Below, piece after piece: positions 4,468 through 9,311 of a DNA stretch of 64,000 bases (position 1 is the stretch's first letter; every line of letters begins with the position of its first letter). This stretch comes from Sphaerochaeta pleomorpha str. Grapes. GTDB lineage: Bacteria; Spirochaetota; Spirochaetia; Sphaerochaetales; Sphaerochaetaceae. Where the stretch lies: positions 2,232,001-2,296,000 of the forward strand of contig NC_016633.1 of assembly GCF_000236685.1 (NCBI RefSeq), read 5' to 3'. Below the pieces are notes generated by a model. It saw only the letters and a program-made list of their open reading frames with translations, was not told the DNA's origin and searched no databases. The position numbers and the translations under genes are program-made.

Positions 4468-5199
4468 ATGAAGATAGAACTAGAAACAATCCCTGTCTGG
4501 GATGGGGTAAAAAGCGGAAGCGAATGTTTTGTATGTGACTTGATGGAAGAGTCAGAAAAATATGCAATCTCCTTTTATCTTGGGAATTCAGTCATGAATC
4601 CCGAGACACGGGTAAAAGTCAATGAACATGGGTTTTGCCCGACCCATTACCAGATGCTTCTCTCGGCGAACAAGCCGCAGGGCCTTGCCTTGATGACCGA
4701 TACCTATCTTTCCACCACTGTAGAGAAGTTCGAAAAAAGCTTTGAGGCCTTGCTCGGGGCCAAGCCTGGCAGGAAAATGCAGGCAGCCATTGCAGATTTT
4801 TCAATCCAACTGGAAAAAAGGGAGCAAGGATGCCTTGTCTGTACTTCCATGCAAGACCGGCTTACCCGGTATTGCTTTACCATTGCCTATCTATGGAACC
4901 AAGATCCTGAGTTTAAAGAGGCTTTGGCAAAGGGGAAAGGATTTTGCCTGCATCATTTCCAGAAATTATTGGAAATCTCCCCAAAGGTCTTGTCAGGTTC
5001 TTCCCATGCCGAATTTGTAAAAGCAATAACTGAATTGGAACTTGCCAACATCGACCGGATTAAAAAAGACGTATGGTGGATGACCCAGAAGTATAAATCT
5101 GAGAATTATGAGGAAAGCTGGAAAGGCTGCGAGGATGCACACAGAAGGGGAGTAAACAAGATTACAGGGAAAAGCCGGGTTATTGATCCGTTGAAATAG
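4468..5199 (+). CDS. DUF6062 family protein with two CxxC/CxxH modules
   Basis: A 243-residue protein of unknown function that opens with the DUF6062 signature ETIPVWDG. It has two copies of the same cysteine module. In the first, Cys20-x2-Cys23 pairs with Cys57-x2-His60 (GFCPTHY). In the second, Cys122-x2-Cys125 pairs with Cys160-x2-His163 (GFCLHHF). This looks like two structural zinc sites in an all-helical protein arisen by internal duplication. There is no signal peptide or membrane segment, so it should be cytoplasmic. The ATG at 4468 is preferred over the upstream one at 4450, which lies before the -10 box. Its end overlaps the convergent gene by 20 bases. Confidence 0.75.
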   Translation: MKIELETIPVWDGVKSGSECFVCDLMEESEKYAISFYLGNSVMNPETRVKVNEHGFCPTHYQMLLSANKPQGLALMTDTYLSTTVEKFEKSFEALLGAKPGRKMQAAIADFSIQLEKREQGCLVCTSMQDRLTRYCFTIAYLWNQDPEFKEALAKGKGFCLHHFQKLLEISPKVLSGSSHAEFVKAITELELANIDRIKKDVWWMTQKYKSENYEESWKGCEDAHRRGVNKITGKSRVIDPLK

Positions 5200-5788
5200 T
5201 ATGGTTTTTCTTTTTCCTGGATTTCCGGGTTTTTATTCCCAGCGAAAGCTGGAGATCTCCAGAATCATGATCCATTTCCTTCTGCATGAAGAGGGAGCTC
5301 ATCCCTTCCTGTTTGTTAAAATGGTAGTAGTCAATCCTAGGGCCATTGGAACGATAGATTAGTATATAGTCTTTCTGAGGAAGAAATGCTACGGCCAAAA
5401 CGAGGCTGCATCCCAGTCCTTGCAGTTTTCTCAGCCTGTCCATTTGGCTTTTGTTAAGGTAATCATTATAGAACACCACTGCCAAAGGCCGGCTCTCTTT
5501 GCGGTCATGAACCAACAGGTCGACTGGAACTGTTCCCACAATCGGGTAAATATCAACTTTCATGTTTTGCGGCAATGCAAGAGAGGATTTGGAACTGGGG
5601 TCAAGGGAAAGGCCAAGAACTTTTCTCAGCTCTCGCTGCAAATGTGAGGCAAAACAATGGGCGATGCTTATCTTTGCCTTATGCCACTCAAAAAGCTCGC
5701 TGTCTTCTGTCAACAAATAACTCAGGGCACTTTCAAATGCATCGAAAAGCAAAATATTTGAATATCGCCCCTTGTTTTCTGTTTCCAC
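5180..5788 (-). CDS. Uncharacterised cytoplasmic protein
   Basis: A 202-residue protein I do not recognise. The centre reads as alternating beta and alpha segments (VDIYPIVGTVPVDLLVHDRK, then PLAVVFYNDYLNKSQMDRL, then LGCSLVLAVAFL), and the C-terminus is lysine- and arginine-rich (KTRKSRKKK). The strand-helix order with acidic residues on two strands is faintly like the PD-(D/E)xK nuclease fold, but the key lysine is not evident, so this is only a suggestion. The stop is one base before the OsmC gene's stop side, so it is probably co-transcribed with the OsmC gene upstream. Coding status rests on length, codon quality and tight packing. Confidence 0.6.
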   Translation of the reverse strand: METENKGRYSNILLFDAFESALSYLLTEDSELFEWHKAKISIAHCFASHLQRELRKVLGLSLDPSSKSSLALPQNMKVDIYPIVGTVPVDLLVHDRKESRPLAVVFYNDYLNKSQMDRLRKLQGLGCSLVLAVAFLPQKDYILIYRSNGPRIDYYHFNKQEGMSSLFMQKEMDHDSGDLQLSLGIKTRKSRKKKNHTISTDQ

Positions 5789-5789
5789 C

Positions 5790-6182
5790 TTATCGCTCCT
5801 GGGAGAAATCGACTGTCCAATGCATTTCTGCGACTTTGGAGAGGGTCTGGTATATGGAACAATACCGTGTAGCTGTCTCGAACGCCTTCAAAAATTTCTC
5901 TTGGTTGTCGCACCCGGTTGCCGTAACGTTGATAGTGCATTCCTTGAGTGTGGTTGGAGAGGTTTCCCTCTTTGTTCCGAGCACTTCAAATCCTACATGT
6001 TCCCAGGCAACCTGCATTTTGACCGAAAGGGCCTCAAACGTGCTGAACAGACACCCGCTCAGAGCACCCAGCAAATAATCATAGGGACCTGTAGACCCCA
6101 GCTCATATACCGATCCATCAGAGGTGTTGAATTGGTAGTGTCCATGGACAAAATCGGCACGTATATGTTTTGATTCACTCAT
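5790..6182 (-). CDS. OsmC/Ohr family protein
   Basis: A 130-residue protein of the OsmC family, whose best-known members reduce organic hydroperoxides with two redox cysteines. Both candidate cysteines are present: one in GALSGCLFSTFEAL on the central helix and one in RYCSIYQTLSKVAE near the C-terminus, at the family spacing. The N-terminal beta region (FVHGHYQFNTSDG) also fits. The gene lies 26 bases downstream of the CDF exporter and is probably translated from the same mRNA, which would link peroxide defence to metal export. The exact substrate is unknown; many short OsmC members are uncharacterised. Confidence 0.85.
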   Translation of the reverse strand: MSESKHIRADFVHGHYQFNTSDGSVYELGSTGPYDYLLGALSGCLFSTFEALSVKMQVAWEHVGFEVLGTKRETSPTTLKECTINVTATGCDNQEKFLKAFETATRYCSIYQTLSKVAEMHWTVDFSQER

Positions 6183-6208: not shown

Positions 6209-7120
6209 TCATTTGTCTGCGGTAATGCTAGTATAATTCTTTTTGAAAGGATTTACATGGACCATACAGTGTTTTACCTCAGGGAAATTAAGTTCAATTG
6301 CATGGTGAACCCGCTCAGCAATTGCATGGGCTTCTACCAGACTCAGTTTTCCGTCTGCAGAGATCTCTACATCGACATAGGCTCTAGAGCTGAACTGCCG
6401 GGTATTAAGCACATCAAGGGACAGTACCCCTTTCTGGTCTAGTACGACTCCCGTGATAGCTTCTACAGTTTCCTGTGGACATGCCTGGTCGACCATTTTA
6501 TTCATACCATCCATAAAAATCTGGATTCCTACCTTGAGGATGAAACCGGCGATGATAATTGCAGCAAAAGAATCTGCAATGGGGAATCCGAATCTCGAAC
6601 CGGCAATGCCGATCAAGCCCCCGGTCGTGGCCAAAACATCACTTTGTGAATCCCATGCCGAAGCCATCAGGGCTGATGATTTAAGTTTCTTTGCCCCCCA
6701 TCTGGTATAGATAAACATAATTTCCTTTATGATTATCGAGGCTCCAGCAGCAATCAATGCCAAAATCCCTGGCATCGGGAGATTTTTGTAGGTACCTTTG
6801 AATATTTTTTGAATACCATCGACGCCGAGGCCGAACCCGACAGCCATGACAATCCCTGAAAGCAGAATGGATGCAACACATTCAAGCCTTTCGTGTCCGT
6901 ATTGGTGGTTTTTATCCGATGCCTTTGATGCTGCGCGAAGACCGATGATGACAATTATGGAACTGACTACATCGGAAGCATTGTTTATTCCATCGTTTAC
7001 CATTGCGCTGGAATTGGCGACTACACCAACGATTAGCTTGGATACAGAGAGAAGCGCGTTCAGAAAGATATTCCCACGAGAAATTCTCATGGCAATTTTT
7101 CGATCAGTTTGATGTTCCAT
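6209..7120 (-). CDS. Cation diffusion facilitator, manganese-type metal site
   Basis: A 303-residue inner-membrane metal exporter with six predicted membrane helices and a cytoplasmic C-terminal domain. The transport site residues are Asn46 and Asp50 in helix 2 (DGINNASD) and Asp157 and Asp161 in helix 5 (AWDSQSD). Zinc exporters usually carry His/Asp at these positions. The Asn-Asp-Asp-Asp set is that of MntE-like manganese exporters, so Mn(II), or possibly Fe(II), is the likely cargo. The start has a CGGAGGTAACTG Shine-Dalgarno. Expression appears to pass through a 200-base leader with a terminator, which suits metal-responsive control. It is followed by an OsmC gene. Confidence 0.85.
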   Translation of the reverse strand: MEHQTDRKIAMRISRGNIFLNALLSVSKLIVGVVANSSAMVNDGINNASDVVSSIIVIIGLRAASKASDKNHQYGHERLECVASILLSGIVMAVGFGLGVDGIQKIFKGTYKNLPMPGILALIAAGASIIIKEIMFIYTRWGAKKLKSSALMASAWDSQSDVLATTGGLIGIAGSRFGFPIADSFAAIIIAGFILKVGIQIFMDGMNKMVDQACPQETVEAITGVVLDQKGVLSLDVLNTRQFSSRAYVDVEISADGKLSLVEAHAIAERVHHAIELNFPEVKHCMVHVNPFKKNYTSITADK

Positions 7121-7170
7121 CAGTTACCTCCGGTAGCTTTTGGCACTCCTTATGATTCGACTATATCCCC

Positions 7171-7322
7171 GGTGAATAAAAAAAATACATCCGTGGGGAT
7201 ACTAACCGTCCCACAGATGTTTCTATTCACCTGTTGTCCTTACGGACCCAGCCCCACAGGCCAGAAGGCCCATCGCCTGCTCAGTTTGTACTGTAGATTC
7301 ATATTGCAGTGCAAATTCAGAT
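7171..7322 (-). ncRNA. Structured leader RNA with intrinsic terminator upstream of the CDF exporter
   Basis: The minus-strand transcript starting near 7322 contains a GGCC hairpin (7259-7270), then a stem CCTGT/ACAGG (7230-7234 with 7256-7260) capped by a GTCC-GTAA-GGAC hairpin. Next comes a strong terminator: an 11-bp stem with one G-U pair (7187-7197 with 7210-7220) and a run of eight U. An outer 7-bp stem, GGTGAAT/ATTCACC (7171-7177 with 7225-7231), embraces the terminator and shares bases with the CCTGT/ACAGG stem, so the two cannot form together. This is the layout of a riboswitch or attenuator. I could not match it to yybP-ykoY, NiCo, fluoride or SRP RNA. Confidence 0.6.
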
Positions 7323-7328
7323 GTATGT

Positions 7329-7357
7329 AAGGTACAAAACAATTATGCATTTGTCAA
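7329..7357 (-). promoter_or_regulatory. Promoter of the CDF leader
   Basis: On the minus strand, TTGACA (7352-7357), a 17-base spacer and TACCTT (7329-7334). A copy of TACAGTACAAAC lies just upstream of the -35, and a second copy sits in the transcribed leader near 7284-7295. Confidence 0.65.
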
Positions 7358-7412: not shown

Positions 7413-9209
7413 CTATTCTTTTTGTTTTGGCTTGTTGATGATCAAGTGCAAATCATCAAGTTGCTGTTGGTCGAGCTCTGAAGGGGAGTCGTCCATCGGG
7501 CTTACTGCCGCGGTGTTCTTCGGGAATGCAATGACTTCATGGATTGAGGTTTGCTCACTCATAATCATTACCATCCTGTCGATACCGGGGGCAATCCCGC
7601 CATGCGGGGGTGGTCCATACCTAAAGGCATTGAGCAGGAACCCGAACCTTTCCTCTGCTGTCTCATCATCAAAGTTACAGATTCTGAAAATCCTCTTCTG
7701 CAATTCGACATCATGGATACGGATAGAACCGCTTGCACACTCATATCCGTTGCAGACCAAGTCATAGAGGTCACCTTTTACGCTACCTGGATCGGACTCA
7801 AGTGTGTCGAGGTATTCAATCTGGGGCATGCTGAACATGTGGTGAGCAGCTTCCCAGTGGCCTTCCTCTTCATTGTATTCAAACAAAGGAAAGTCGATAA
7901 TCCAGCAGAATTCAAAGCTTTTTCGGATCAACTTCAAATCCTTGCCGAGTTTAGTTCTTACAGCCCCAAGGCTGGTGCAACACTTTTTCCAGTTTTCATG
8001 GGCAACGAACAGGATCAAATCGCCCTCATTGGCACCAAGCCGATCTATGAGCTCACTCTCCAAGCCCCCGAAGAATTTTGTTACACCACCGGAGAGGGCT
8101 TTGTCTGCTCCGACTTTGATCCATGCCAACCCCTTGGCCCCATAGATCTTTGCAGCGTCTTCAAGTTCAGTGATGTACTTGCGTGAGAAATCAACACCCT
8201 CGGTCTTGGGAGCACACAGTGCCTTTACATGGCCACCGTTTGCCAAAATCTCTCCAAAGGTCCCAAAACTACTTTTTGATGCAAGGTCATCGACATCAAA
8301 CATGGGGATATCGAACCGCAGGTCAGGCTTGTCACAGCCATAGGTATTCATGCTCTCATGGTAGGAAAGCCTGGTAAAATGAGCAGGAAGATCGTAGTCC
8401 ATAACTTCCTTGAAGACATGGTTGAACAACTCTTCAATAAGGAGCAGGACATCGTCACGCTTCACGAAGCTCATTTCGATATCAAGTTGTGTGAATTCCA
8501 GCTGGCGGTCTCCGCGGGCATCCTCATCACGGTAACAACGGGCAATCTGGAAATACTTGTCGATACCGCCAACCATCAGGATTTGCTTGAAAAGCTGAGG
8601 GCTTTGGGGAAGGGCATAGAATTTTCCAGGATAAATGCGGCTGGGAACGACAAAGTCCCTGGCTCCTTCCGGAGTACTCTTAATGAGTGTGGGGGTCTCG
8701 ATTTCAAGAAAGTTTTTTTCTTCAAGGTATTTTCTGATGGAGAAAATGAAATCGTTTCGCAATTTCATTCTCTGTTGCATGCCTTGTGTACGCAAATCGA
8801 GATAACGATATTTAAGCCTGAGATCCTCACGTGGTTCATTCCCGTCGTCAATCTGGAACGGAAGTGGAGCACACTTGGAAAGAATTTCGATTTTTTCGGC
8901 TTTTACTTCGATTTCTCCGGTTGCCATCTCAGGATTGACCATTGAATCTGGGCGAAGGCGGACAATGCCCGTCACGGCGATACAAAATTCCATCCTGAGT
9001 TCTTTAGCGGTATCCTGTAATTCGATACTGGCATCGTCGTCGACGACGACCTGGGTAATACCATATCGGTCTCTCAGGTTGATAAAATGGAGTGCACCGT
9101 GGTTTCGGTCCCTATGGACCCATCCATTGAGAATAACGGTCTTGCCGTTATCTGCTTTCGTAAGTGCCCCGCACGTAGCTGTTCGTTGTGAAAATGCTTC
9201 TTCTGCCAT
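7413..9209 (-). CDS. aspS: Aspartyl-tRNA synthetase, bacterial type
   Basis: A 598-residue class II synthetase that charges tRNA-Asp. It has the N-terminal OB-fold anticodon domain (VILNGWVHRDRNHGALHF), motif 2 (QIARCYRDEDARGDRQLEFT), the inserted GAD domain of the bacterial enzyme in the middle, and motif 3 near the C-terminus (GIAPGIDRMVMIM). The length matches the usual 590-600. I chose the ATG at 9207-9209 (MAEEAFSQRT), with GGGGA about seven bases upstream. The longer frame from 9248 starts within the likely -10 region. It is followed by its own terminator. Confidence 0.96.
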   Translation of the reverse strand: MAEEAFSQRTATCGALTKADNGKTVILNGWVHRDRNHGALHFINLRDRYGITQVVVDDDASIELQDTAKELRMEFCIAVTGIVRLRPDSMVNPEMATGEIEVKAEKIEILSKCAPLPFQIDDGNEPREDLRLKYRYLDLRTQGMQQRMKLRNDFIFSIRKYLEEKNFLEIETPTLIKSTPEGARDFVVPSRIYPGKFYALPQSPQLFKQILMVGGIDKYFQIARCYRDEDARGDRQLEFTQLDIEMSFVKRDDVLLLIEELFNHVFKEVMDYDLPAHFTRLSYHESMNTYGCDKPDLRFDIPMFDVDDLASKSSFGTFGEILANGGHVKALCAPKTEGVDFSRKYITELEDAAKIYGAKGLAWIKVGADKALSGGVTKFFGGLESELIDRLGANEGDLILFVAHENWKKCCTSLGAVRTKLGKDLKLIRKSFEFCWIIDFPLFEYNEEEGHWEAAHHMFSMPQIEYLDTLESDPGSVKGDLYDLVCNGYECASGSIRIHDVELQKRIFRICNFDDETAEERFGFLLNAFRYGPPPHGGIAPGIDRMVMIMSEQTSIHEVIAFPKNTAAVSPMDDSPSELDQQQLDDLHLIINKPKQKE

Positions 9210-9311
9210 AATGGGTCCCCGTGGGCCTCCTTTGCAAAGTACTCCCATACTATAACATCAAGATTCAAAAGGCAATTGCCTGGTTGTAAGGAAACCGGAA
9301 GCTGGAAAAGG

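Follow-up and report, generated by a model that had tools for sequence, protein, structure and literature searches.

A NiCo/czcD-class riboswitch with a conserved 5′ module precedes a CDF exporter operon in Sphaerochaeta pleomorpha

Which regulatory RNA stands before the CDF metal exporter gene of Sphaerochaeta pleomorpha str. Grapes? The gene heads an operon that continues with an OsmC-like gene and a third reading frame (ORF3), and it is preceded on the minus strand by a leader of about 200 bases, as the original prediction, made from the sequence alone, had correctly described. According to that prediction, the leader is an unassigned regulatory RNA in which a ligand controls a terminator, and it may belong either to a new metal-sensing class or to a strongly diverged version of the yybP-ykoY manganese riboswitch. 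The locus was analysed within a window of 64,000 nucleotides (NC_016633.1, positions 2,232,001 to 2,296,000), and its features are collected in Table 1.

Table 1. Features of the leader and of the exporter operon (window positions)
Feature	Position	Strand	Basis or remark
aspS	7413-9248		borders the leader upstream
-35 box TTGACA	7352..7357	-	sequence; same place in sister species G410 (L127)
-10 box TACCTT, weak	7329..7334	-	sequence; 17-base spacer to -35
Leader RNA, ~200 bases	between aspS and CDF gene	-	
Putative P0, 5′ strand; 5′ half of conserved module, UUUGCACUGCA	7305..7315	-	
Variable linker of 5′ module	7295..7304	-	10 nt here; covarying hairpin in other members
Putative P0, 3′ strand; 3′ half of module, ACAGUACAAA	7285..7294	-	nearly all treated as unpaired in RF02683
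NiCo/czcD riboswitch aptamer	7204..7294	-	RF02683, model 1-96; own model 76.5 bits
Invariant GGG of aptamer core	7247..7249	-	by alignment, guanines of the metal site in this class
Invariant GGGAC, second metal-site segment	7208..7212	-	G's also in terminator 5′ arm
Intrinsic terminator hairpin	7187..7220	-	RNAfold -18.1 kcal/mol; overlaps P4 3′ strand and GGGAC
U8 tract of terminator	7178..7185	-	
Ribosome binding site GGAGG of exporter gene	7127..7131	-	sequence
CDF metal exporter, A-site N46-D50-D157-D161 (NDDD)	6209..7120	-	Pfam PF01545 139.5 bits, PF16916; TIGR01297
OsmC-like protein, second operon gene	5790..6182	-	PF02566 45.2 bits; synteny kept in relatives
ORF3, 202 aa, third operon gene	5180..5788	-	keeps its place after CDF and OsmC within the genus

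The leader was thought to have a near-consensus promoter of its own. This holds for the -35 box, which is a perfect consensus, and for the 17-base spacer, but the -10 box agrees with the consensus at three of six positions, and the promoter is not among the matches reported by a consensus promoter scan. Transcription probably starts near 7322. A strong intrinsic terminator had been placed about 60 bases before the coding region, and it was indeed found there, followed by eight U and separated from the CDF start by 58 bases. Just 5′ of the -35 box, ACAGTACAAAC (7374-7362, minus strand) is a second copy of the start of the aptamer flank.

A search with Infernal against Rfam 15 shows what the leader is. 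Positions 7294-7204 (minus strand) match RF02683, the NiCo/czcD family, over the whole model (positions 1-96 of 96) with 65.8 bits, where the gathering score is 37 (E 6.3e-13), and this is the single gathering-level Rfam match across the whole window. The RNA is thus not unassigned, and the idea of a new class falls with the very kind of result, a significant match to a known family, that the original prediction had named as decisive. For yybP-ykoY, no Rfam match to the leader was obtained at gathering level or up to E 10, in agreement with the earlier remark that the conserved loops of this riboswitch are not seen; a strongly diverged yybP-ykoY is thereby ruled out as well. In favour of either idea, there was the NDDD quartet of the exporter, tied to manganese by a published analysis (PMC5703985), but with a sole, full-length match far above the gathering score, and with core residues and helices that are those of NiCo, the probability left for them is next to nil. 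The yybP-ykoY and NiCo-type leaders have in common that they are metal-responsive, precede metal-exporter genes, and follow an ON logic, but the leader in the window shares neither a sequence nor a structure match with the manganese riboswitch. As judged by its sequence, the leader clearly adds a member to a riboswitch class that is already known, NiCo/czcD, and does not found a new one.

The assignment extends to individual residues and helices. Both the GGG and the GGGAC segments are invariant in 19 of 19 aligned diverse members, and in the NiCo class conserved guanines coordinate the metal (PMC7689651). In the same alignment, double-sided changes occur at 17 of 25 pairs with a covariation score of 0.444 versus 0.187 for shuffled alignments (0 of 500 shuffles reach the observed score), and four helices around the junction are supported. 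Conservation and covariation among relatives, proposed earlier as a check of the riboswitch idea, are therefore strong, but the structure they support is that of NiCo. Leaders before relatives of the window CDF in Clostridia and Negativicutes likewise match NiCo, and a search of plasmids for relatives of the leader gave zero matches. For L073 and L086, a search of the genomes gave no NiCo, but the class search that started from one of the two did. The window member has all core residues, the P1-P4 layout, an overlapping intrinsic terminator, and the place before a CDF exporter in common with RF02683. It differs in its host, a Sphaerochaeta-group spirochaete, in the NDDD A-site of its exporter (most NiCo-linked CDFs have HDHD), and in an added 5′ module (UUUGCACUGCA/ACAGUACAAA), the 5′ half of which lies beyond the Rfam model.

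How would such a leader switch? The 5′ arm of the terminator is formed by the 3′ strand of aptamer P4 together with the GGG of GGGAC, so the aptamer and the terminator are mutually exclusive, and the same overlap recurs at 45 of the 49 Clostridia NiCo loci that were drawn independently. A transcript ending at the U-run folds with the terminator at -47.9 kcal/mol when unconstrained versus about -35 when the aptamer is enforced; the resting state is therefore expected to be OFF, and metal to turn the switch ON. Since the terminator reuses P4 and the GGGAC core, the best candidate mechanism is that of the NiCo class itself, metal-dependent readthrough (PMC7689651; PMC7917058). When free metal is scarce, GGGAC and the 3′ strand of P4 would pair with CCCACGGATGT to give the terminator. 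A divalent metal filling the GGG/GGGAC sites would hold the four-helix aptamer together and block the terminator, the polymerase would read into the CDF-OsmC-ORF3 operon, and excess metal would be exported. It is thus very probable that this NiCo/czcD-class riboswitch is a genetic ON switch acting by transcription antitermination. The original picture, in which the exporter and OsmC operon has a leader that responds to metal through a terminator, is supported.

The sister species G410 (L127) keeps the promoter, the module, the aptamer, and the terminator before the same gene, and in its leader P4 still overlaps the terminator and the helices of the Rfam model are retained. The principle of mutual exclusion had been anticipated for two other stems, CCTGT/ACAGG and GGTGAAT/ATTCACC. 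These complementarities are real, but they are not aptamer helices and both are absent from the G410 leader, and so they were dropped as the switch; the relevant exclusion is between P4 with GGGAC and the terminator. A hairpin competing with the flank and P1 (CAGU-ACAA-ACUG) was also considered as a conserved switch element and was weakened by the flank reading CAUU in L213 and L215.

The exporter itself has the Asn-Asp-Asp-Asp manganese-type site that had been recognised at the outset: Asn-Asp and Asp-Asp are contributed by TM2 and TM5, respectively, and the quartet is kept in 19 of 19 genus orthologues aligned across the site. The NDDD quartet is linked to manganese, and A-site composition predicts the metal only loosely (PMC5703985). 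It is shared with MntE and the clade-1 manganese CDF exporters (PMC5703985), but the window CDF scores 99.7 bits in the NCBIfam MntE model (NF052621), whose equivalog cut-off is 500, and its place in a tree of 55 CDFs is inside HDHD Clostridia CDFs, away from the separate NDDD clade. The CDFs of the genus fall into a single NDDD clade of this tree (100/100); the Clostridia CDFs that surround it mostly have HDHD, and many are NiCo-linked. Five NiCo-controlled Clostridia CDFs make up a second, distant NDDD group. Manganese-type exporters therefore appear to stand under NiCo control in two lineages. The quartet varies further among NiCo-linked exporters, with DDND and DDHD A-sites in L042, L045, L050, L075, and L077. 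ORF3 has no Pfam or NCBIfam family match. In the sister species, two OsmC-like genes lie near the CDF gene on opposite strands (L127:3820-4290, minus, and 5254-5730, plus).

Which metal the RNA would sense is a wider question, since the ligand of the NiCo class is itself under debate (PMC9294342) and unsettled between Ni/Co and Fe (PMC9294342; PMC7689651; PMC9481103). Reported affinities combined with estimates of availability speak for Fe(II) and Mn(II) inside the cell (PMC7689651), and, together with the occurrence of NDDD both in the genus and in the five Clostridia CDFs, this brings up the possibility that the NiCo scaffold here responds physiologically to Mn(II) or Fe(II) rather than to Ni(II)/Co(II), in keeping with the exporter. 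Besides, in the same genus and at 17 of 49 Clostridia loci, NiCo stands before the gene of an ATPase; this protein has its best NCBIfam match, below the cut-off, in a PMR1-type calcium-transporting model. On the other hand, the A-site is a loose guide, HDHD prevails among NiCo-linked CDFs, and the metal-contact residues are identical to those of HDHD-linked members, so that nothing in the RNA indicates an altered specificity. A Mn(II) or Fe(II) ligand is therefore regarded as a reasonable option, at somewhat less than an even chance; as far as its sequence goes, the RNA core gives no pointer to the metal sensed. What is left of the earlier manganese idea concerns the NDDD site of the exporter.

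The riboswitch is not a constant companion of the exporter. In other genus members, the same NDDD exporter follows aspS with no riboswitch and a gap of 47-146 bases; the aspS-CDF gap is about 290 bases in the window and 270 in G410. The exporter can therefore do without the riboswitch at this locus. Since the riboswitch is present in the Clostridia outgroup and in the window lineage, which is the first to branch off, its loss in the other genus members would be the simpler reading.

Further NiCo riboswitches occur in the genus. A second one in the S. pleomorpha genome (L003:8004-8097, minus strand; G000:C1:1930003-1930096; 73.4 bits) has the module and the terminator but is not followed by an exporter gene. 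In G406, a PMR1-like ATPase gene comes after the riboswitch, and then ApbA-like and ATC-hydrolase-like genes; at the second S. pleomorpha locus, the ATC hydrolase and ApbA genes remain and the ATPase gene is gone. In two other species of the genus (L124:4531-4628 and L125:5349-5446, both minus strand), NiCo has no same-strand gene directly behind it, and these copies give the impression of orphans left over from the ATPase operon.

The 5′ module deserves separate consideration. UUUGCACUGCA sits upstream of the Rfam boundary, 10 bases before the aptamer flank ACAGUACAAA, to which it is complementary. The module was first noticed in the initial set of NiCo loci and then tested on NiCo loci taken independently from 391 Clostridia genomes. 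There, the motif occurs at 23 of 49 NiCo loci, and all 23 also have the flank (21 exactly); among the 26 motif-less loci, an exact flank is found once, at a locus with a degenerate motif. Co-occurrence of the two halves is highly significant (Fisher p about 4e-13). There are 15 occurrences of the exact two-part pattern in the 391 Clostridia genomes and 2 in the genome of the window, all 17 of them at a NiCo aptamer; a reversed control pattern had 0 occurrences in the same genomes. All 7 NiCo loci of the window's genus have the module, as do 5 of 14 Bacilli-class loci and 0 of 11 other spirochaete loci. Two ideas about the module were set aside: P1 is not longer in module-less members, which rejects the module as a replacement for a longer P1, and TTTGCACTGCA does not mark a wider regulon in this genome, its six other copies having no partner half and mostly lying inside long reading frames.

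The module reads most naturally as an RNA helix, P0, placed before P1. Its halves can pair as UUUGCACUG/CAGUACAAA in eight pairs. Among 49 distinct sequences, most of these pairs are retained in 96-100% and the outermost one in 86%. At two Bacilli-class loci, C-G is replaced by A-U on both sides of P0, which gives modest support (44 of 2000 shuffles score as high). Alone, P0 is weak (-3.2 kcal/mol), but directly before P1 it may help P1 to form against the terminator. A plain helix would hardly be expected to have two nearly invariant C-A mismatches, and the halves also make up an inverted repeat, though an imperfect one (TTTGCACTGCA/TACAGTACAAA), close to the start of transcription, so the nearly invariant sequence could instead be a DNA operator for a regulator. 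This is rather unlikely in view of the spacing between the halves, which varies between 3 and 35 nt and shows no helical phasing, of the long linkers, which form a hairpin with compensatory changes, and of the fact that in 392 genomes the exact two-part pattern never stands at a gene without a NiCo aptamer. No description of the module was found in the literature searched, which did not include the founding NiCo paper.

In itself, an exporter gene preceded by a riboswitch of a known class is ordinary; the 5′ module and the type of exporter matter more. It may be tentatively proposed, with some doubt prevailing, that about half of NiCo riboswitches, the one in the window among them, carry a P0 domain as part of the switch and that those with NDDD exporters may be tuned to Fe(II)/Mn(II) rather than to Ni/Co. 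Should the module contribute to the function of the RNA, constructs that begin at the Rfam 5′ edge are without it, and the affinity and selectivity measured with them for a class of disputed ligand could be affected. The NDDD exporters under NiCo control in two lineages would offer direct genetic test systems for this dispute.
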